Virus record (IMG/VR): IMGVR_UViG_3300043567_000149 | Span: 1 to 21,531 of that record | Source of the DNA: a virus | Direction: 5' to 3' (one strand) | DNA length: 21,531 nt | In this document: positions 11,300 through 21,291 of the stretch, one piece after another | How the letters are laid out: each line of letters begins with the position of its first letter | How positions within the stretch are numbered: position 1 is the stretch's first letter | Made by a program: the position numbers and the translations under genes | The notes under the pieces: generated by a model | What the model was told of the DNA's origin: nothing | Databases searched by the model: none | What the model saw: the letters and a program-made list of their open reading frames with translations, nothing else

Positions 11300-13600
11300 T
11301 TAGGCTAAAATAATTCCGTTCTCGTCAAGTGTTTTGTTCTCTAGTAGATCAATTGTTGCTGGCGGAATGATGATAAATTTAACCTGATCATCTGCCCAAT
11401 CAGCAGTAACAACACTGCCACTTTCTACATGCTCGAACAAAATCTTTTTACTTAACGGAACTTTTATCAGTTCATTAATCTTGCGTGCTAAAGGTCTAGC
11501 ACCCATAGCAGGATCAAATCCAACTTCAGTTAAGTGATTAACTAGTGCTTCTGTGGTACGTATCTTAATATTCTTTTCAACTAATAGGTCGTTTAATTCA
11601 TTTAAGAATTTAACTACGACTTTCTTCATCGAAATCTTGTCTAGTTTATTAAATTTAACCACAGCATCTAAACGATTGCGGAACTCCGGTTTAAAGAATT
11701 TCTTAGCCGCTTCGTCATCTGTTCCTGTCTTTTGCTGATCTCGTCCGAATCCAATGGCGTTTTGTTCACCGTCACTAGCACCTAGATTACTAGTTAGAAT
11801 TAAGATTGCGTTTCGGCAGTCTGCTTTCTTACCATTCGAACCGGTAATATATCGTTCGTCCATAACCTGTAACAGCAAGTTACTAATGTCTGGGTGAGCT
11901 TTTTCAATTTCATCTAGTAAGATAATTGAATGCGGGTTACGCTCAACTTCACTAATCAACAAGCCACCACCCAAGTTGCCATCTTCATAGCCAACATAGC
12001 CCGGAGGAGCACCGATAAGTTTGGCCATACTGTGTTTCTCTTGATATTCACTCATATCAAAACGTATTAACTTCATGCTTAAATTTTCACTTAGCAACTT
12101 ACATAACTCTGTTTTACCAGTACCTGTTGGTCCTAAGAATAAGAAGTTACCTACTGGTTTGTTATGAGCCTTCATACCAGCCTTGGCTACATAGATCTTT
12201 TCTAATACCTCATCAACAGCTGAGTCTTGACCGTATAAACGATCTTTAATAGTTGACTCTAAACTAATAAGGGTATCTGTTGCTTTTTCACCTAATAGAT
12301 TTTCTTTAGGAATCTTAGTTGCTTTGGCTAGTGTTTCGATAATATCAAGTTTAGTCACAGCAAAATCGGGACTCTTAATTTTAAGTTTAGCACAGCTCAT
12401 ATCAATTAAGTCTAGGGCTTTGTCTGGTAAGCGTTTGTCTGTTTGATATCGTACACTTAAATCTACTGCGCTATCGATAGCATCGTCACTAATAACCCCA
12501 CCGTGGAAGCGTTCAAAGTGTCCACGTAAGCCACGCAAGATGTCCTTGGCCACTGCCGGACTAGGCTCATCAATATTAAGTTTGTAGAACCTGCGCATTA
12601 AAGCACGGTCTTTTTCAAACGACTGGGTATACTCTTCAAAAGTAGTTGAAGCAATGACTTTAATATTACCTTTAGCCAGTGCTGGTTTAAGCATATTAGC
12701 AAAATCTACACTACTTGAACTGCCGGCGCCTGCGCCCTGCATTTGGTGTGCTTCGTCGATAAACAAAATAGTTTTACCTTTACTGCTCAATGCGGCCAAC
12801 ACATCTTTAAGTTTTTCTTCAAACTCACCACGATACTTACTGCCAGCAAGTAAACTACCGATTTCTAAATTATATACTGTGTAGTCTTTTAAGTATTCCG
12901 GAATGTCACTGTGTATAATTTTATATGCGATGCCTTCGGCAATAGCCGTTTTACCTACACCGGGATCACCAATCATCAATACATTTGATTTGTTACGGCG
13001 AGCTAGGACCTGTGTAATTTCTTCAATTTCGTATTCACGACCAATCAACGGATCAACTTTACCGTCTGTAACTTCCTTATTAAGGTTAGTACAATATTCA
13101 GCAAGTACACGATCTGCTTGTGATTCTTTCGGTTTGTTTTCTTTACGATTGTTGTAGCGTATATTTTCTTGTGCGTAGAATGCCACTAGGTCTTTGCGAT
13201 TGATACCCCATTTTAATAAGAAGTAAGCCGCATGACTTTGTGGTTCTTGACTAATGCTTAGGAATAAATCAATTGGCTCCATCATTTCGCGAGCACTGAA
13301 TAGCACCTGAGTAAACGCACGATTAAACACACGTTCTAACGCATGAGTTTTTTGTGGAACACTTTCATTATTAGCAAGGTCTATTAGACTATCTTGTTTA
13401 CCTAGATAGTCATAGAGATCCCGTATAAGTTCTTCAACTTCTACACCAAATTCTGTCATTAACCTATTAAAACTATCAAATTCGACCAGCGCAACTAAGA
13501 GATGTTCTAACGTTACGTATTGGTGATTATAGTCTCTAGCAATAATACATGCTTTGGCTATGATTTGTTCTATATCGGGATTTGATTTCATATTGCTCAC
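11300..13600 (-). CDS. clpA: ClpA-type AAA+ unfoldase with ClpP-docking loop
   Basis: The 766-residue protein has a Clp N-terminal double-helix repeat (about 8-150), AAA-1 with Walker A GDPGVGKT (211-218) and Walker B ILFIDEAH (278-285), and AAA-2 with Walker A GPTGTGKT (490-497), pore loop GYVGYEDG (534-541) and Walker B IILLDEIEKA (559-568). A small domain ends with GARPLARKI. No ClpB-type middle coiled coil separates the AAA domains, and length equals E. coli ClpA. NAIGFGRD (614-621) occupies the place of the ClpP-binding IGL/IGF loop, so it could dock on host ClpP. A GTG start at 13600 is preferred because GAAGG lies 6 bases upstream; the ATG at 13591 is too far. It has a perfect late promoter. 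Confidence 0.93.
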   Translation of the reverse strand: MSNMKSNPDIEQIIAKACIIARDYNHQYVTLEHLLVALVEFDSFNRLMTEFGVEVEELIRDLYDYLGKQDSLIDLANNESVPQKTHALERVFNRAFTQVLFSAREMMEPIDLFLSISQEPQSHAAYFLLKWGINRKDLVAFYAQENIRYNNRKENKPKESQADRVLAEYCTNLNKEVTDGKVDPLIGREYEIEEITQVLARRNKSNVLMIGDPGVGKTAIAEGIAYKIIHSDIPEYLKDYTVYNLEIGSLLAGSKYRGEFEEKLKDVLAALSSKGKTILFIDEAHQMQGAGAGSSSSVDFANMLKPALAKGNIKVIASTTFEEYTQSFEKDRALMRRFYKLNIDEPSPAVAKDILRGLRGHFERFHGGVISDDAIDSAVDLSVRYQTDKRLPDKALDLIDMSCAKLKIKSPDFAVTKLDIIETLAKATKIPKENLLGEKATDTLISLESTIKDRLYGQDSAVDEVLEKIYVAKAGMKAHNKPVGNFLFLGPTGTGKTELCKLLSENLSMKLIRFDMSEYQEKHSMAKLIGAPPGYVGYEDGNLGGGLLISEVERNPHSIILLDEIEKAHPDISNLLLQVMDERYITGSNGKKADCRNAILILTSNLGASDGEQNAIGFGRDQQKTGTDDEAAKKFFKPEFRNRLDAVVKFNKLDKISMKKVVVKFLNELNDLLVEKNIKIRTTEALVNHLTEVGFDPAMGARPLARKINELIKVPLSKKILFEHVESGSVVTADWADDQVKFIIIPPATIDLLENKTLDENGIILA

Positions 13601-13624
13601 AGAGTACCTTCTTCCTTATAAAAA

Positions 13625-13632
13625 TATTTATA
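13625..13632 (-). promoter_or_regulatory. T4-type late promoter TATAAATA for the clpA-like gene
   Basis: The minus strand reads TATAAATA, identical to the T4 late consensus, and its central TAA is the stop codon of dnaJ. The predicted start near 13619 puts an AAGGAAGAAGG leader directly before the GTG start of the clpA-like gene. Confidence 0.78.
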
Positions 13633-14452
13633 GACTAGACTTTAGGGTTCTAAGTATATTTAATTGTTCGTTTGATAGTGATGGGGTTTTAATAGTTAAC
13701 TGTGCTATTAAATCACCACGAACACTGCTATTCATCTGATACAGTCCTTGTCCTTGTAGCGAAAATCTAGTACCGTATTGGGCACCTGCTGGTATTTTAA
13801 CTAACCAAACACGCCCGTCAACTCCGGAAATTTCTTTGTCTATACCTGTCATAGCATCAATACTGTCAATGGTTAGTTCTGTAAACAAATTGATTCCATG
13901 TATTTCAAATTTAACTTCAGGCTGTATACTAATTATAACATAAAGATCGCCTCTTGTCAATGTTTCAAACATATTATCACCGAGTTGGCTGTATTTAATT
14001 GTAGTGCCGTTGCTTACTCCACGTGGAATATTAACATCTACATTAAATCTATCACCTTTGGTTGTTTGTACACTAACTGTTCTAGTCTGCGGCTCTAATG
14101 TGCTGGCTAAATTAATAACTATATTAATTCGTAGATCTTTGTTTCTTCGTGCTTGGCGTTGTTGCTGTTGGAAGGGATTATGTCCGCCAAAGAATTGACT
14201 AAAAATATCTTCGGGGCCACTGTTAAAATGAAATTCGTGATGGCCACCACCTCCAAACGGATTGGGATTATCGTGTTGATGACGTTTCTGAGGGTCAGTT
14301 AGTGTTTCGTATGCTGACTGTATCTCTTGGAACTTAGCAGTGTCGCCACCTTTATCGGGGTGGTGTTTGCTGGCCATGGATCGATAGGCCTTTTTAATCT
14401 CTGATTCTGTAGCGTTTTTACCTACGCCTAAGGTTTCGTATGCGTTTGCCAT
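13628..14452 (-). CDS. dnaJ: Type II J-domain co-chaperone (DnaJ/CbpA-like)
   Basis: The 274-residue protein has an N-terminal J domain (about 4-62) with an intact HPD motif at 31-33, a Gly/Phe/His-rich linker (about 65-100) and a C-terminal substrate-binding region. It lacks the CxxCxGxG zinc fingers of true DnaJ, so it is a CbpA-like type II J-protein. It would stimulate host DnaK ATPase and deliver clients. It is followed by the ClpA-type unfoldase, whose promoter overlaps its stop. No Shine-Dalgarno precedes the ATG, but a TTGACG-17-TATAAT promoter places the predicted transcript start on the A of the ATG, so translation may be leaderless. Phage-encoded J-proteins are uncommon. Confidence 0.92.
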   Translation of the reverse strand: MANAYETLGVGKNATESEIKKAYRSMASKHHPDKGGDTAKFQEIQSAYETLTDPQKRHQHDNPNPFGGGGHHEFHFNSGPEDIFSQFFGGHNPFQQQQRQARRNKDLRINIVINLASTLEPQTRTVSVQTTKGDRFNVDVNIPRGVSNGTTIKYSQLGDNMFETLTRGDLYVIISIQPEVKFEIHGINLFTELTIDSIDAMTGIDKEISGVDGRVWLVKIPAGAQYGTRFSLQGQGLYQMNSSVRGDLIAQLTIKTPSLSNEQLNILRTLKSSL

Positions 14453-14458
14453 ATGTTA

Positions 14459-14487
14459 ATTATATAATAAAAAAGGGTAAGCGTCAA
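14459..14487 (-). promoter_or_regulatory. Sigma70-like promoter for leaderless dnaJ, overlapping a terminator
   Basis: On the minus strand a -35 TTGACG (14487-14482) and a -10 TATAAT (14464-14459) are 17 bases apart. The -35 lies in the loop and stem of the terminator hairpin at 14471-14500. With the -10 at -12 to -7, transcription would begin at 14452, the first base of the dnaJ ATG. Confidence 0.65.
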
Positions 14488-14500
14488 TGCTTACCCTTTT
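14471..14500. terminator. Bidirectional rho-independent terminator ending the lysis operon
   Basis: A perfect 8-bp stem GGGTAAGC/GCTTACCC (14475-14482 with 14489-14496), extended by A/T pairs, encloses a 6-base loop. On the minus strand it is followed by TTTTTTATTATA; on the plus strand by TTTTATTT. It lies 25-50 bases downstream of the -1 frame stop at 14525 and would end the holin transcript before dnaJ. Confidence 0.9.
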
Positions 14501-14524
14501 ATTTACTACTTAATTTAACCGAAG

Positions 14525-15027
14525 TTAAGTTTTCTTTCTACGCAACGGGCGATCCGAGTCTGTTGCTGCTGGAGTTTCTGCCGGCATACCTGCTACAGCA
14601 TTCGCATACTCTTCTGCCACTACTGGGTCGTTCATTACAGGTGCTACATCAGCTACAGGTACGTTATCCTCTGGTGCGCTTTGGCTTAACCAAACTGGTT
14701 CGGAAGAACTTGCTACGGGGGTGTCTTCAAACCCTGTTATTTTCCCGCGTCACCTGCTTCAATGCTTGCTACTTTTTCTTTACCGCGTGTCCATGCCGCA
14801 ATACCTAAGATAGCACCCATGGAGATATGGTATAACCCACCACCTTGTAGTGTTAACGGTACCCACATGCCAATTGCTTGTCCTGGGTTCCAGTATTGTA
14901 GTATATTGAATAGGACTGGTCCTAAAATAAAATCAAACCAGATTGTAGCCATGTATGTTATAGCCATTAACGGACGCCATTTTGTGGTCATCCAATCTTC
15001 TGATTTTTTTTCTGCTTGAGTTGTCAT
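14525..15027 (-). CDS. Predicted -1 frameshift product: holin with a 71-residue acidic tail
   Basis: If ribosomes slip -1 on GGGAAAA (14746-14740), the 96-residue holin is extended by 71 codons to a TAA at 14525-14527, giving 167 residues. The extra tail starts ITGFEDTPVASSSEPVW, is rich in Asp, Glu, Pro, Ala and Val, and ends in a basic cluster DRPLRRKKT. The -1 frame is open throughout this 216-base stretch, has no ATG with a ribosome-binding site near its beginning, and fills the whole gap between the holin stop and the terminator. A base-call error (one A missing from an A5 run) would give the same continuous frame. Confidence 0.6.
14737..15027 (-). CDS. Three-TM holin (GTA-type), zero-frame product
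   Basis: The 96-residue product has a polar start (MTTQAEKKSEDWMTT), then KWRPLMAITYM leading into a first hydrophobic segment (about 20-45), and two further hydrophobic segments (about 52-62 and 65-80) before a charged end (TRGKEKVASIEAGDAGK). The W-R-P-L entry followed by D-F-x-x-x-P-V-L matches the 3TM holin family described from gene-transfer agents and marine phages. It would form the inner-membrane lesion that triggers lysis. AGGAG lies 7 bases before the ATG. The frame ends at a TAA that directly follows the slippery heptamer, so this may be the short form of a two-product gene. Confidence 0.8.
   Translation of the reverse strand: MTTQAEKKSEDWMTTKWRPLMAITYMATIWFDFILGPVLFNILQYWNPGQAIGMWVPLTLQGGGLYHISMGAILGIAAWTRGKEKVASIEAGDAGK
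14740..14746 (-). promoter_or_regulatory. Candidate programmed -1 frameshift heptamer G GGA AAA
   Basis: In the holin zero frame the last codons are GCG GGA AAA TAA, giving a heptamer of the X XXY YYZ form (GGG AAA A) directly before the stop. Five bases downstream GGGT (14734-14731) can pair with ACCC (14722-14719), and the loop GAAGA (14728-14724) can pair with TCTTC (14707-14703), a possible small H-type pseudoknot. The spacer length fits known sites. An alternative local hairpin (GTTC/GAAC) competes. Confidence 0.55.
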
Positions 15028-15071: not shown

Positions 15072-15326
15072 TTATAAAAGTGCTGTAGCCAGGTTCTCGA
15101 TACCGACTAATACTTCATTTAATGCTGATTTAAATGCCAAGTCATCAGCCGCACTAGCAATAGTGTGTGTACGTTTTAAATCATTAACTAATTCTTCGTA
15201 CTCAACACGACTGATTGCGCGACTTTCTACTAGTGTTTTTAGCTCTGCGGCCTGTTTAGCAAATGCCACAGCATTAACATTGTTACAGCCAATTAATTCT
15301 GCTAATTTTACATCTACGCTGCTCAT
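15072..15326 (-). CDS. Unknown small helical protein in the lysis cassette
   Basis: The 84-residue protein begins MSSVDVKLAELIGCNNVNAV, is rich in Ala, Leu and Glu, and should be almost entirely helical. It has no signal peptide, lipobox or membrane span, so it is probably cytoplasmic. Its ATG overlaps the stop of the second lipoprotein as ATGA (15323-15326), and the holin promoter follows in the 44-base gap downstream. Its position between spanin-like genes and the holin suggests a role in lysis timing or an unrelated passenger; the sequence gives no function. Confidence 0.7.
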   Translation of the reverse strand: MSSVDVKLAELIGCNNVNAVAFAKQAAELKTLVESRAISRVEYEELVNDLKRTHTIASAADDLAFKSALNEVLVGIENLATALL

Positions 15327-15736
15327 CTTGGTTTAGCTCCTATTACTGTTTTCATTGTACCTGAACTGTTTTCGATATTGTTAAATTTAAGTTCGCAGTA
15401 CTTTTTACTAACTTCGTCACCGCTGTCATACCGATCTTTAAGACCTTTAGTAATAACAGCAAGTTCTGTGGTCATTGTTACTGTATCTTTGTTGTGCGGA
15501 ATACTTGCTGAATAGTTACGAAGTTCTATACTCTTAACATACACAGTGTCTACATAGGCTAACACTTCTTTAGTACCGCATTTAGTCACGCCTACTTGTG
15601 CTTGTGTATGAATTTGATTAACTAAACTGTATTCGTTGTTGTCAAACTTAGCCATACGGTAAGCATCAATTATAGTATTAATGCTGGCGCAACCTGACAA
15701 TAGAACTACTAGACTAACTAAAGCTAGTTTTTTCAT
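15323..15736 (-). CDS. Second lysis-cassette lipoprotein, unknown function
   Basis: The 137-residue protein begins MKKLALVSLVVLLSGCAS, a clear lipoprotein signal with lipobox LSGC (acylated C16 after cleavage). The mature part is polar and mostly helical, with two further cysteines (KCGTKE and KKYCELKF) that could form a disulfide in the periplasm. It is coupled by ATGA to the o-spanin gene upstream and to the 84-residue gene downstream. It is not a typical Rz1 and I do not recognise the family; a lysis accessory or a superinfection-exclusion lipoprotein are both possible. Confidence 0.75.
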   Translation of the reverse strand: MKKLALVSLVVLLSGCASINTIIDAYRMAKFDNNEYSLVNQIHTQAQVGVTKCGTKEVLAYVDTVYVKSIELRNYSASIPHNKDTVTMTTELAVITKGLKDRYDSGDEVSKKYCELKFNNIENSSGTMKTVIGAKPR

Positions 15737-15993
15737 TTAACTTCCTCGTAGATACGACGTTGTTCTTTATACCAAATACCCCAGGCTTCATGTTTAGCTT
15801 GACACTCATAGTAGGTGCTGTAATTTTCACTTACATTGCCCACAACATCACTTAGTTTGTTGGTGTCTGCCGGTAGTTGTTTAAGAACAGGGCAATCTAT
15901 AGCAAGTTCACTAGGAACATCTGGAAATGTTGCTTTAACTGGCACTAGAGTTGAACAACCTGAGAGCAATAATACTATTAATAGATATCTCAT
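15733..15993 (-). CDS. o-spanin-like outer-membrane lipoprotein (Rz1 type)
   Basis: The 86-residue protein starts MRYLLIVLLLSGCSTLVPVK, with lipobox LSGC and acylated C13. The mature part has a Pro-containing start (FPDVPSELAIDCPVLKQLP) and ends in SENYSTYYECQAKHEAW, WYKEQRRIYEEVK. The 'C-x-x-L..LP...NY..Y.EC..KH..W' pattern is common to o-spanins encoded beside Rz-like genes. It would sit in the outer membrane and pair with the i-spanin from the gene just upstream, whose stop overlaps its start as ATGA. Together they would fuse inner and outer membranes in the last step of lysis. Confidence 0.82.
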   Translation of the reverse strand: MRYLLIVLLLSGCSTLVPVKATFPDVPSELAIDCPVLKQLPADTNKLSDVVGNVSENYSTYYECQAKHEAWGIWYKEQRRIYEEVK

Positions 15994-16442
15994 TTAGTTT
16001 CCTCCTTGCTAGGACCTTCTGCGGCTTTGTTTAGAATTTCAATAGCTTCTTTAGGCACTACACATTCACCGTTGATAATCTTTTCTTTTTCTACAATTTC
16101 TTTCTGTAGTTGGACCTGTATTTCTTTAACTCGTTTAATTTTAGTAACTACTTTAGTTTTGATCACTGTGTTTGTTTCTTGGCTTTTAACCACAGCCGCA
16201 TCTACTTTAGCCTGTAATTCTGCAGCACGCTCTCTCCACTGCATCTCAACTTCGTAGCCACCTTTAAAATATACACCTGCTACCAACAGCATAATGCCTA
16301 CAACCTGTACTATTAGTCGATAGGGTCTAAGATAACTAAAATTGAATACAAAGCCCAATAATGAAGTAATGATACCAGCATAGAATACAGAATTAACGAA
16401 CGCATGTAAGATGCTATCCGGAATAAATGTCAACATCCACAT
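15990..16442 (-). CDS. i-spanin-like inner-membrane protein (Rz type) with an extra N-terminal TM
   Basis: The 150-residue protein has two hydrophobic segments (about 15-35 and 44-60) followed by a long coiled coil (about 65-122, rich in Lys, Glu, Gln and Val) and a C-terminal ...GECVVPKEAIEILNKAAEG segment. The last phrase (Cys, 'VP..AI.ILN.AA') is characteristic of phage Rz-like spanins. Classical Rz has only one N-terminal anchor, so a two-helix hairpin would leave both ends on the same side; either the first segment is not fully inserted or the topology differs. AGGAG, inside the last codons of the endolysin, sets the start. Confidence 0.8.
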   Translation of the reverse strand: MWMLTFIPDSILHAFVNSVFYAGIITSLLGFVFNFSYLRPYRLIVQVVGIMLLVAGVYFKGGYEVEMQWRERAAELQAKVDAAVVKSQETNTVIKTKVVTKIKRVKEIQVQLQKEIVEKEKIINGECVVPKEAIEILNKAAEGPSKEETK

Positions 16443-16443
16443 A

Positions 16444-17289
16444 TTATTCTCCTAACATTTTTTTGATAGTTGCCGGCCCGACAATACCATCTGCTGTTAA
16501 GCCGTGTGCTGTTTGCCACGCTTTAACTGCTTTCTCTGTACCTGGGCCAAACTTACCATCTGCTGTTTGTCCGAGAGCCTTTTGTACCGCTTTAACTGTG
16601 TCGTTGTTGCTACCGACACGCACTGTTACGTACTCTGTAGCTGTGGCAGGTGCTGTGTGTGACTCTGCCACGTGCCCACCGCCTAATAAGTGTTTAGCTT
16701 CTTTGTAGTGCTTGGTACGGTCTTCTAGGCCAATTGTACCACCGTTAATGCGTTTGGTCATTTTAACAATATCATCTGCATCACAGATAGCGTTTAGGCC
16801 ATTTGTTTTCCAAAACCAGCATGCTGATTCAATAGCACCATCTAGTGTTTCTAAGTCTGCTACTGCTTCTTCTACTGTTAGGCCTACTGATTTAGCAAAC
16901 TTAGTGTAGTTGTCGCGCCCTGTCAGTTGAATAGCACCACGGCCACAAAACTTAAATCCATCACCACTTGCTTCTGGACCATTGCCCATACGTCCACCGT
17001 AGACTTTGTTAGCAATCTTTTCTGGTTGACGATGATATGGTTGCGCACTTGCTAGTGTAGGAAAGTATTTTTTAAAGATCTTATTTAAACCCTCTGCTGA
17101 GTAGTTTAAGTTTTCTTTGAGAATTGTAAAGCCTGCTGATTCATGACCGCACTGTGCTAAGAAGCCTGCCGCACGATTAACAGTGTTGATTTCATACTTT
17201 TCAAACTGCTCTGTAAGTACTTCTGCTAGGTCTTCTGGATGTTTATATTTTGGAAATAGTGCTTTGATTATACCTGCTGTAATTTGCAT
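16444..17289 (-). CDS. GH19 endolysin with C-terminal peptidoglycan-binding domain
   Basis: The 281-residue protein has an N-terminal GH19 chitinase/lysozyme domain (about 1-205) with the catalytic Glu in AQCGHESAGF (E50), a likely second acid E59, and the family signature CGRGAIQLTGRDNY. An Ala/Thr-rich linker (about 207-222) leads to a PG_binding_1 domain (about 223-281) with VGSNNDTVKAVQKAL, DGKFGPGTEKAVKAWQ and a half-repeat DGIVGPATIKKML. It hydrolyses peptidoglycan glycan strands. There is no signal peptide, so release depends on the holin encoded downstream. AGAGGA lies 8 bases before the ATG. Confidence 0.95.
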   Translation of the reverse strand: MQITAGIIKALFPKYKHPEDLAEVLTEQFEKYEINTVNRAAGFLAQCGHESAGFTILKENLNYSAEGLNKIFKKYFPTLASAQPYHRQPEKIANKVYGGRMGNGPEASGDGFKFCGRGAIQLTGRDNYTKFAKSVGLTVEEAVADLETLDGAIESACWFWKTNGLNAICDADDIVKMTKRINGGTIGLEDRTKHYKEAKHLLGGGHVAESHTAPATATEYVTVRVGSNNDTVKAVQKALGQTADGKFGPGTEKAVKAWQTAHGLTADGIVGPATIKKMLGE

Positions 17290-18406: not shown

Positions 18407-18575
18407 AAATGCGCAGGCTTGATGATAAGTTTGAGTTAAGTTGACTGTGTTGGATAGCTTAATACTTAGTCCAGATAAAAATAATTTAACTGCTCACAAA
18501 AAAATTAAAATTGGCTCATTAAATACCTGTGTACATGATGCCTTTAATCTGTACAACACTTCAAAGGAGCTTCAA
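18407..18575. other. Divergent intergenic region / phoH leader
   Basis: This A/T-rich region separates minus-strand late genes from plus-strand phoH. The phoH frame remains open back to a TTG at 18441, but there is no ribosome-binding site there. I could not find a convincing sigma70 pair: TTGACT at 18441 has no -10 at proper distance. No NATAAATA was seen on the plus strand. The phoH promoter is therefore unassigned. Confidence 0.5.
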
Positions 18576-19319
18576 TTGCCAAGACATCGTAGATCATCAC
18601 GCAGTAACAACTCAACAGCATTCGCAGTAGATAACACAGTCGTAAGTTTTAACAGTTACGTTCAGCAACGAAAAACAGTAAATTTAATTCCTAAGAGTAT
18701 TAACCAAGAAGAATATATTAGTTTATTGACCAATGATAGCAAGAGTATAGTGTTTGCTACAGGTCCAGCCGGTACGGGTAAAACCATGTTAGCCGTGTTA
18801 GCCGGCATTAAAGCCTATAAAGAAGGGGAGGTGAAGAAGATTGTACTAACTCGTCCAGCGGTAGGGGTGGATGATGAGAAACATGGTTTCCTACCAGGTG
18901 ATATTAACGCTAAAATGGAACCGTGGACTAGACCTCTGTTTGATGTATTTGCAGAGTATTATAGTCCCAAAGAAGTAGCCCGTTTGCTAGAAGAACAAGT
19001 GATTGAGATAGCTCCACTAGCATTTATGAGAGGTCGCACTTTTAAGGATAGTTGGATAGTAGCAGATGAAATGCAAAACGCCACTCCTGGACAGATGAAG
19101 ATGCTCCTAACGCGACTCGGCGAAAACTCCAAGATAGTTGTTACAGGTGATACACGTCAGGCAGACCGTAAAGATCCAGACAACGGTTTACTAGACTTTA
19201 AGAGTCTTGTTGCCACATACCAACATAGTAAGTATGTTGCCGGTGTTGAATTTGCCAATAAAGACATTATGCGCCATCCGGCCGTTAAGGAGGTCTTATC
19301 GATATACGGCGAAATATAA
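18576..19319 (+). CDS. phoH: PhoH-like ATPase
   Basis: From the TTG at 18576 the product is 247 residues, beginning with the basic PRHRRSSRSNN segment typical of phage PhoH. It has Walker A GPAGTGKT (63-70), a TRPAVGVDD segment (about 92-100), Walker B IVADEMQNAT (161-170) and TGDTRQAD, the PhoH/RecD-like P-loop NTPase pattern. PhoH is widespread in marine phages; it was named for phosphate-starvation induction but its role in infection is unclear, with RNA-related activity proposed. The TTG start is chosen because AGGAG lies 6 bases upstream; a longer frame to TTG 18441 lacks such a site. Confidence 0.92.
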   Translation: MPRHRRSSRSNNSTAFAVDNTVVSFNSYVQQRKTVNLIPKSINQEEYISLLTNDSKSIVFATGPAGTGKTMLAVLAGIKAYKEGEVKKIVLTRPAVGVDDEKHGFLPGDINAKMEPWTRPLFDVFAEYYSPKEVARLLEEQVIEIAPLAFMRGRTFKDSWIVADEMQNATPGQMKMLLTRLGENSKIVVTGDTRQADRKDPDNGLLDFKSLVATYQHSKYVAGVEFANKDIMRHPAVKEVLSIYGEI

Positions 19320-19349: not shown

Positions 19350-19976
19350 ATGGATATTAGTTTTACACAAAAAAGATTCTTACTAGCATCTCTTAAATTT
19401 AACGCAACATACAATTATCATGAAGTCCAACAGGCCCTAGTTAACGAACACTGGGTCAGTTGGGCCGATGATTATCCAATGGGGCATGATAATCCTGGAT
19501 GGAACAAACGCTTCCGCATCAAGGATATACAAAGTCCTATTCTATTAGAAATACAATCGTTCTTACAATCAAATTCAGCACGTGACAAAATGTTAGATGT
19601 GCTGTATTCATTTGAGCCCGCCTTTCAAGGCCTTTGGAGTATAACTAAAGAACAAATGCGAGACTGGGCTATATTCCATATGGAGTATGTATTAGACAAA
19701 CCCGGCTTTTATTTAGGTCCACACAATGATTATCGACGATTGGTTGCTGCTGGTCTGGTATATCTTAACGAAAAAGACGATCCACGTATTGCTACTACAC
19801 TGTATACTGATAGGCAGTTAAGTAATCCACTAACTATGACTACCAATTTTGGCGATGGCTGGTTTGCTGCCAACGACTACTGTAATTGGCACGAAGGTGC
19901 TAACAATAGCGAGTACGATAGATATAGTATCCTATTGGGACTAACAATTAAATCACCGGAAGAATATGTCAAATAA
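19350..19976 (+). CDS. 2OG-Fe(II) oxygenase-like protein
   Basis: The 208-residue protein has the 2OG-Fe(II) triad: H125-x-D127 in GFYLGPHNDYRR and H181 in CNWHEGANN, with R191 ten residues later for 2-oxoglutarate. The 'D.PGF.L.PH.D' entry and AAGLVYLNEKDD strand match phage and bacterial oxygenases that act on proteins or small molecules. It lies between phoH (30 bases upstream) and the radical SAM gene, whose start it overlaps by 11 bases, so it is probably co-expressed with the latter and may act in the same modification pathway. No strong ribosome-binding site is present; GGTGG is about 16 bases away. Confidence 0.82.
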   Translation: MDISFTQKRFLLASLKFNATYNYHEVQQALVNEHWVSWADDYPMGHDNPGWNKRFRIKDIQSPILLEIQSFLQSNSARDKMLDVLYSFEPAFQGLWSITKEQMRDWAIFHMEYVLDKPGFYLGPHNDYRRLVAAGLVYLNEKDDPRIATTLYTDRQLSNPLTMTTNFGDGWFAANDYCNWHEGANNSEYDRYSILLGLTIKSPEEYVK

Positions 19977-21291
19977 AAAAGTATGGCCAATTAAAAGCGA
20001 AACAAGTTGCTATCTTAAATGGTCTTGGAGTACTATCTATCTTAACCGCGGTACTACAGCCAGTTGCCATAGAACTGTACACAACGACTTTGGCCCTGAA
20101 AACTTTGACGAGTTCCACAACTTACCTAAAAAATTAGATGATCGTAAGCGTATGCTTGCTGGCGGTTGGCCTGAAGAAAGCGAAACAGATAAGTTTGGCC
20201 TAAATGGTTGTACATACTGTAAGCACATGGAAGATAAAGGTGGTGTTAGTGATCGTCTAGTTCAACTGCGCAATATTAAAGGCGCCTTTGAGAATCATAC
20301 CAACGTATTGCCTCCAGAATTACTTGACAATCCAGAAGCCATAGAAGTCACTCCTACTATTGTAGAAGTTTACTTTAACAATGTCTGTAATATGGCCTGC
20401 TTGTACTGCGGCCCGCACTTCAGTACTATGTGGGAAGAAGAAAATCGCAAATTTAGTGCTGTAGAAGATGGTATCTTAGTTAACCCAAGTTGGGAACGTG
20501 ACCAAACTCGCTATGATAGTATGCGTGATAAACTGTTTGAATGGTTACGCAATCACGGGCACAAGATTTGGAACTTTGGTATGTTAGGTGGCGAGCCATT
20601 CTTCCAAAAAGAATTTGACATGGTCTTAGATCATTGGGACAACTATCCTAATCCAGATCTGTTCTTTACTATTGTTACTAATCTTAAAGTAGAGCATAAG
20701 CGTTTTGTTGGCTATATTGATAGACTTAAACGCATGGTTGACGATAAAAAGATTAAGCATCTTAACATCAGTGCTAGCATGGACTGTTGGGGTCCGCAGG
20801 CAGAATACATTCGTTGGGGATTAAAACTTAGCGAATGGGAAAAGAACTTTGAGTACATGGCCAAACAAGAATGGATTATTCTTAATGTTAATCTAACCAT
20901 TACTCCACTTAGTATTAAAACTCTACCTGAGCTTATTGAGAAACTAAATGCTTTAGATAAGTTTAGAGCACCAACTAAACACATCTGTATTAGTTTCATG
21001 CACGTGTTAGAACCTACACAGTTAAATCCTTTATGGTTTGGTGCGGGTGTATTTACAGAAGACATGCAGCGAGTTGTAGATGTAATGCCCACTGTTACCG
21101 AATACCAACGAAACTTTAAAGATTACATGATGGGTGTTGCTAACAGCATAGAAAAAACTCCTAGAGATCCAAAGAAGATTCTTATGTTAGAAACTTATCT
21201 AAATGAAATGGATCGACGTAGGGGAACTGATTGGCGAACACTTTGGCCTTGGTTAGAAGACCAATTTAGTCAAGCACGTACTGAATTATAA
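19966..21291 (+). CDS. Radical SAM enzyme with N-terminal twitch domain
   Basis: The 441-residue protein has the radical SAM cluster motif C-x3-C-x2-C as NNVCNMACLYCGP (C141, C145, C148). MLGGEPFF (about 204-211) corresponds to the GGE SAM-binding motif. The N-terminal ~90 residues hold four more cysteines (C15, C34 in TASCHR, C82 and C85 in GCTYC), fitting a twitch-type auxiliary [4Fe-4S] cluster placed before the barrel. Such enzymes modify peptides or small molecules by radical chemistry. GGAAGA lies just before the ATG, inside the oxygenase gene. The substrate is unknown; no obvious small peptide precursor lies beside it in this window. Confidence 0.9.
   Translation: MSNKKVWPIKSETSCYLKWSWSTIYLNRGTTASCHRTVHNDFGPENFDEFHNLPKKLDDRKRMLAGGWPEESETDKFGLNGCTYCKHMEDKGGVSDRLVQLRNIKGAFENHTNVLPPELLDNPEAIEVTPTIVEVYFNNVCNMACLYCGPHFSTMWEEENRKFSAVEDGILVNPSWERDQTRYDSMRDKLFEWLRNHGHKIWNFGMLGGEPFFQKEFDMVLDHWDNYPNPDLFFTIVTNLKVEHKRFVGYIDRLKRMVDDKKIKHLNISASMDCWGPQAEYIRWGLKLSEWEKNFEYMAKQEWIILNVNLTITPLSIKTLPELIEKLNALDKFRAPTKHICISFMHVLEPTQLNPLWFGAGVFTEDMQRVVDVMPTVTEYQRNFKDYMMGVANSIEKTPRDPKKILMLETYLNEMDRRRGTDWRTLWPWLEDQFSQARTEL

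Follow-up and report, generated by a model that had tools for sequence, protein, structure and literature searches.

The window, i.e., the whole stretch of 21,531 nucleotides of viral DNA analysed here (IMG/VR record IMGVR_UViG_3300043567_000149), carries a lysis cassette on its minus strand, the last gene of which encodes a holin. The cassette comprises the following genes:

16444 to 17289, minus strand: endolysin of the glycoside hydrolase 19 type with a peptidoglycan-binding domain (profile matches)
15990 to 16442, minus strand: Rz-like spanin candidate (weak PHROG spanin matches; position)
15733 to 15993, minus strand: Rz1-like lipoprotein, LysC (PF23793, E=3e-6)
15323 to 15736, minus strand: cassette lipoprotein (lipobox-like start; syntenic)
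15072 to 15326, minus strand: cassette protein of 84 residues (open reading frame; often syntenic in relatives)
14737 to 15027, minus strand: holin gene, zero frame, encoding the short form of 96 residues (open reading frame)

A DnaJ gene comes after the holin in the window, and the order endolysin-Rz-Rz1-lipoprotein-holin-DnaJ is kept in the frameshift relatives described below wherever the locus is long enough.

The holin is identified by profile matches above the cut-off and by its place in a cassette with endolysin and spanin candidates; it is predicted to make membrane lesions through which endolysin is released. Its match to Pfam PF11351 (GTA_holin_3TM; E=1e-5, 26.4 bits for a cutoff of 24.8) spans only model positions 56-117 of 123, and PHROG 3427 (holin) matches with E=2e-7. 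A three-TM holin had originally been proposed, but the protein has only two hydrophobic stretches, at about residues 19-46 and 56-80, and its AlphaFold model, of moderate confidence (mean pLDDT 73.5), is a two-helix hairpin. It thus looks like a two-TM rather than a three-TM holin, and, as it has charged ends and a pair of membrane helices, its N-terminus and C-terminus are probably both cytoplasmic. Codon 13 is a conserved in-frame ATG (window positions 14991-14989); among the relatives, 69 of 88 have an in-frame ATG at codon 12-14, in the context D-W-M. This might be a second start, as in dual-start holins, and in the window it is preceded only by a weak AGAAGA.

The 3' end of the holin frame reads GCG GGA AAA TAA, and the following features are found there:

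14740 to 14746, minus strand: slippery heptamer GGGAAAA, G_GGA_AAA in the X_XXY_YYZ pattern (sequence; GGGAAA[A/G] in 15 distinct loci; codon bias)
14737 to 14739, minus strand: zero-frame stop TAA, directly after the slip codons (sequence)
14525 to 14740, minus strand: -1 frame tail of 71 codons plus stop, a C-terminal extension (translation, relatives, selection)
14471 to 14500, minus strand: intrinsic terminator after the tail, with a 12-pair stem plus a T run

The original prediction of a programmed -1 frameshift at the holin stop is borne out in these elements: the heptamer stands exactly in register before the TAA (14746-14740, minus strand), translation of the -1 frame gives 71 codons from ITGFEDTPV to position 14525, and the next feature after this tail is indeed the terminator of the lysis operon (14500-14471). 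The shifted product would be a long form of 167 residues, i.e., the 96-residue holin and the 71-codon tail, with the junction ...GDAGK-ITGFEDTPVASSSEPVWLSQ..., the end DRPLRRKKT and a stop codon at 14527-14525. Upstream of the slip site the -1 frame is open for three codons only. Immediately before the heptamer, the window has a Shine-Dalgarno-like AGGTGA, which is not conserved among the relatives.

Alignment with relatives had been set beforehand as the test of slippage. Scans of viral contigs yielded 142 loci, 88 of which differ from one another in the region of the holin and its end, and an in-frame G_GGA_AAR, closely followed by a stop and accompanied by an open -1 frame, was found in 15 of these 88, window included (L001, identical to the window, L002, L004-L006, L008-L012, L014-L016, L019 and L020). 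In these extension loci the -1 frame is open for 62-93 codons, and the zero-frame stop is immediate or follows within three codons. The stop codon varies (TAA, TAG) and is displaced in L014 (GGA AAA CAG TAG) and L020 (GGA AAA CCT CAG GGG TAG), while the heptamer stays, as GGGAAAG in six relatives and with four A in the others. The glycine codon of the slip site is GGA in 15/15, vs. 18/140 for the glycine codons upstream in the same genes; GGT, which accounts for 100 of those 140, never occurs at the slip-site glycine, nor does GGC. The codon before it always ends in G, being GCG or TCG in all 15 loci, and elsewhere in these genes GCG represents 13 of 154 alanine codons and TCG none of the 33 TCN serine codons. 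The slip codons are thus fixed against codon habit, which indicates selection on nucleotides rather than on amino acids.

Some relatives do carry one long frame, as would be expected if the true gene were a single frame, broken in the window by a sequencing or assembly error or by a recent frameshift mutation. This is extremely improbable, since the same heptamer break recurs in 15 distinct loci from different samples with differing surrounding bases, the stop differs in identity and, in L014 and L020, lies one to three codons later, and both the heptamer codons and the downstream pseudoknot are conserved. A run of five A, the sign of a continuous frame, was not what the relatives show: they have A4, or A3 followed by G in six of them. 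Other relatives lack one of the two products, with the short form only in L037, L063 and L107, and the long form only in L023, L041 and L060. A second DNA scan for holin relatives returned no further members, a scan of genome contigs only one distant homolog; the distant homologs in the isolated phages Phosso, Atu_ph07, 30-3 and NCTB are without such a signal, and Rfam has no family at the slip site. Some candidate heptamers were set aside: the sequence reached through TTTAAAA in L039 is probably no more than the start of the next gene, and the heptamers of L034 and L040, deep within the tail, were left out of the count.

The tail has the properties of a selected protein segment. In the window it is rich in proline, alanine and acidic residues over its 71 residues, with the basic end RPLRRKKT, and across loci it keeps a PxW near its start and an end of the DPNRPLRRKK type (RPxRRKK-type motif). 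Pairwise dN/dS of the -1 frame is about 0.15-0.40 within alignable groups, rising to 0.4-0.95 for the pairs furthest apart, which align poorly; the tail is thus under purifying selection where alignable, with a strictness that differs between lineages. Termination-reinitiation is common in phage operons, and the tail could in principle be a separate gene expressed in that manner or from its own start. As predicted originally, however, the tail frame offers no early start: the first ATG, GTG or TTG is at codon 36 in the window and at codons 48, 41, 29 and 51 in others tested, and L014 has none at all. Independent initiation hence cannot yield the whole tail, yet its N-terminal part is conserved, and in fused relatives the tail lies in the holin frame, all of which makes a separate gene very unlikely. 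Readthrough in the zero frame was also rejected as the source of the tail, as it gives other sequence over 5-29 codons only across the loci and is closed after 7 codons in the window. With a selected tail, no early start and so short a readthrough, a -1 shift at the heptamer is the only plausible route. Gene callers end these proteins at the stop codon, so that the tail goes unnoticed.

Downstream of the slip site, an H-type pseudoknot is predicted, with support from covariation for each of its arms:

14731 to 14734, minus strand: stem 1, 5' arm GGGU, after a 5-nt spacer following the heptamer
14724 to 14728, minus strand: stem 2, 5' arm GAAGA, located within the stem 1 loop
14719 to 14722, minus strand: stem 1, 3' arm ACCC
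14703 to 14707, minus strand: stem 2, 3' arm UCUUC

Such a structure, starting 3-6 nt after the slip site, is possible in 19/19 distinct sequences, namely those of the 15 extension loci, where the spacer measures 4-6 nt, and of L013, L017, L018 and L021. Covariation was assessed on alignment A2 (4 pairs in stem 1, 6 in stem 2) against 500 shuffles. Over the 19 sequences, paired cells amounted to 92.6% vs. 79.1% in the shuffles, and cells with both partners changed to 28 vs. a shuffle mean of 8.6. The covariation score was 0.440 vs. 0.194 for the shuffles, none of the 500 scoring as high, and it dropped to 0.198 or 0.056 when the partner was slid by one base. Stem 2 occurs as GGAACA/UGUUCC (L010), GAAACA/UGUUUC (L016), GGAGA/UCUCC (L014) and GAAGA/UCUUC (window), and in L017 and L018, the letters of which are nearly unrelated, 8 pairs still form. 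Kinship among the sequences can inflate covariation, but the slid controls and the varied pair types argue against its being the whole explanation.

Within the set, the pseudoknot of the window itself scores weakest, with 6.5% of 200 shuffles doing at least as well, and minimum-energy folding without pseudoknots does no better than shuffles and is uninformative. A structure five bases downstream had been part of the original prediction; it can form at that distance from the heptamer, but it is unexceptional in the window alone, and the case for frameshifting rests instead on conservation and covariation in the relatives. The pseudoknot also bears on transcriptional slippage on the A run, which would give the same frames. 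Such slippage would leave the pseudoknot unexplained, and the run consists of only four A, or three A plus G in six relatives, in contrast with the runs of about 9 on which bacterial transcriptional slippage is described (PMC5009743); its probability as the origin of the long form is negligible.

In some relatives the arrangement is reversed. L013, L017 and L018 encode the long protein in the zero frame, with the tail fused, and have an in-frame G_GGU_UUU five nucleotides before the pseudoknot. A -1 slip at this GGGTTTT makes the next codon TAA, which would give a holin shortened to some 98 residues. Since both GGT and TTT are frequent codons, GGGTTTT alone could arise from Gly-Phe; a functional truncating frameshift is nevertheless the better reading, because the heptamer stands at an exact distance from a pseudoknot that is maintained, and a -1 stop follows at once. 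In E. coli, R_RRU_UUY motifs are among the shift-prone exceptions (PMC4066793). These loci are predicted to make the same two products with their roles reversed. In L021 (= L022, L026) the pseudoknot is kept and a -1 UAG is immediate, but the canonical heptamer is absent: A_CCU_UUU is followed by AG, with only a U_UUU tetramer before the pseudoknot, at which a weak slip is possible. The tail fused to the holin frame in L013 and L021 is the same one (PxW..., DPNRPKRRKKI, DPDRPLRRVKK). Relatives with an uninterrupted long frame, envisaged originally as evidence against slippage, thus do exist (L013, L017, L018 and L021), but all of them keep the pseudoknot. A family tree from 86 columns, which is weakly resolved, places reverse-mode and tail-changed lineages among extension-mode ones, with support too low to count switches. 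The reversed relatives suggest that it is important for the phage to have both forms.

Altogether, a conserved programmed -1 frameshift at the end of the holin gene has a probability of roughly 90%. Its signal would consist of the heptamer G_GGA_AAA, the H-type pseudoknot and, between them, a spacer of 5 nt in which the zero-frame stop lies. Most or many ribosomes would end at the TAA and produce the 96-residue holin, whereas a fixed fraction would slip from GGA-AAA to GGG-AAA and produce the 167-residue form, composed of the same two membrane helices and a 71-residue tail with a basic end; the ratio of the two forms would thus be set within the mRNA. That slippage takes place in the cell, and at what frequency, is inferred from sequence. 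High slip rates are plausible by analogy with published values for E. coli, which may not be the host: G_GGA_AAG is one of the three most slippery heptamers in that organism, and C_CCA_AAG with the pseudoknot stimulator of IS3 reaches up to 54% (PMC4066793). If slip rates are high, short:long ratios could be much alike in extension and reversed loci.

The role of the long form is less certain, and a holin/antiholin relation of the two forms, to which the original note likened them, would be hypothetical. The tail would form a flexible, acidic and proline-rich cytoplasmic arm with a basic end, and the reading that this arm is suitably positioned for slowing or tuning the assembly of the holin is slightly favoured; the long form would then probably tune lysis timing. 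Alternatively, the frameshift might be real and both forms alike in lysis, the tail being neutral, weakly useful or devoted to another job, e.g., the binding of a partner or of nucleic acid via its basic end. Since short-only (L037, L063, L107) and long-only (L023, L041, L060) relatives exist, either form can probably serve as holin, which is in keeping with this alternative; purifying selection on the tail, the maintained pseudoknot and the fact that the reversed arrangement still yields both products speak against it, and it appears less likely than not. The further proposal that a polarity-switching frameshift, which extends the holin in most lineages and truncates it in others (G_GGU_UUU; perhaps U_UUU in L021), maintains two holin isoforms, whose ratio acts as a translationally fixed lysis clock, a form of control not described before, stands at about even odds. 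Lysis timing in phages is a matter of holin control, and here the isoform ratio looks set by ribosome slippage, in uncultivated phages from many samples. Compensatory variants and reversals that occur in nature open the RNA signal, as well as the purpose of the long form, to direct testing.

The two-form holins known so far rely either on a pair of start codons or on antiholin genes of their own. Programmed frameshifting as such is a known kind of control; its use at a holin end, with a pseudoknot and polarity switching, was found in no paper of the open-access literature covered, nor was any other frameshifted holin, and holins go unmentioned in the searched text of the recoding reviews and surveys PMC5009743, PMC4066793, PMC3711429 and PMC10885494. 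Each of the nearest systems shares part of the arrangement. A -1 slip near the gene end likewise yields a short form and a C-terminally extended minor form at a fixed ratio in lambda G/GT (PMC5009743); P2-like tail frameshifts are without downstream structure (PMC3091744). Lambda G/GT is a tail gene located between the major tail protein and tape measure genes, whereas the present gene lies in the lysis cassette, encodes a membrane protein of lysis and has an H-type pseudoknot that is conserved. The heptamer of lambda G/GT is GGGAAAG. The two forms of dnaX (tau/gamma) also have their N-terminus in common; the -1 slip leads to an early stop in E. coli, and reversed arrangements are reported for other bacteria (PMC5009743), the same reversal as between L001-type and L013-type loci. 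However, dnaX is a chromosomal replication gene with a hairpin and a Shine-Dalgarno sequence as stimulators, in contrast to the pseudoknot here. A pseudoknot downstream of a bacterial -1 slip site does stimulate in the IS3 family (PMC4066793), where the protein is unrelated and the frameshift serves a fusion transposase. In lambda S105/S107, too, a single lysis gene has two products, one of them longer by a terminal segment (PMC9841429), but there two starts add 2 residues N-terminally, whereas here a frameshift would add 71 C-terminally. Finally, a link between frameshifting and the expression of a lysis gene was already drawn for MS2 (Kastelein 1982, as cited in PMC5009743 and PMC10885494); the frameshifted ribosome there terminates and restarts on another gene, with no two-form holin.

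A few observations lie beside this argument. In the related holin of L058 (2740-2770), which has the long tail in frame, codon 91 is the site of an in-frame C_CCA_AAG, the most slippery heptamer in E. coli, and in the -1 frame a stop comes one codon further on; a pseudoknot was not seen there, and the locus is a lead only. Between the holin tail and DnaJ, L010-L013, L015 and L019-L021 have about 800-1800 extra bases that are missing from the window. Right behind the lysis cassette of the window, on the same strand, a ClpA/ClpB-like ATPase (766 residues) and the DnaJ protein are encoded (11300-14452), a combination of chaperones that is unusual in phages. By eye, a Radical-SAM-like protein with a CNMACLYC motif was recognized at 19966-21291, adjoined by a PhoH-like ATPase gene at 18441-19319.
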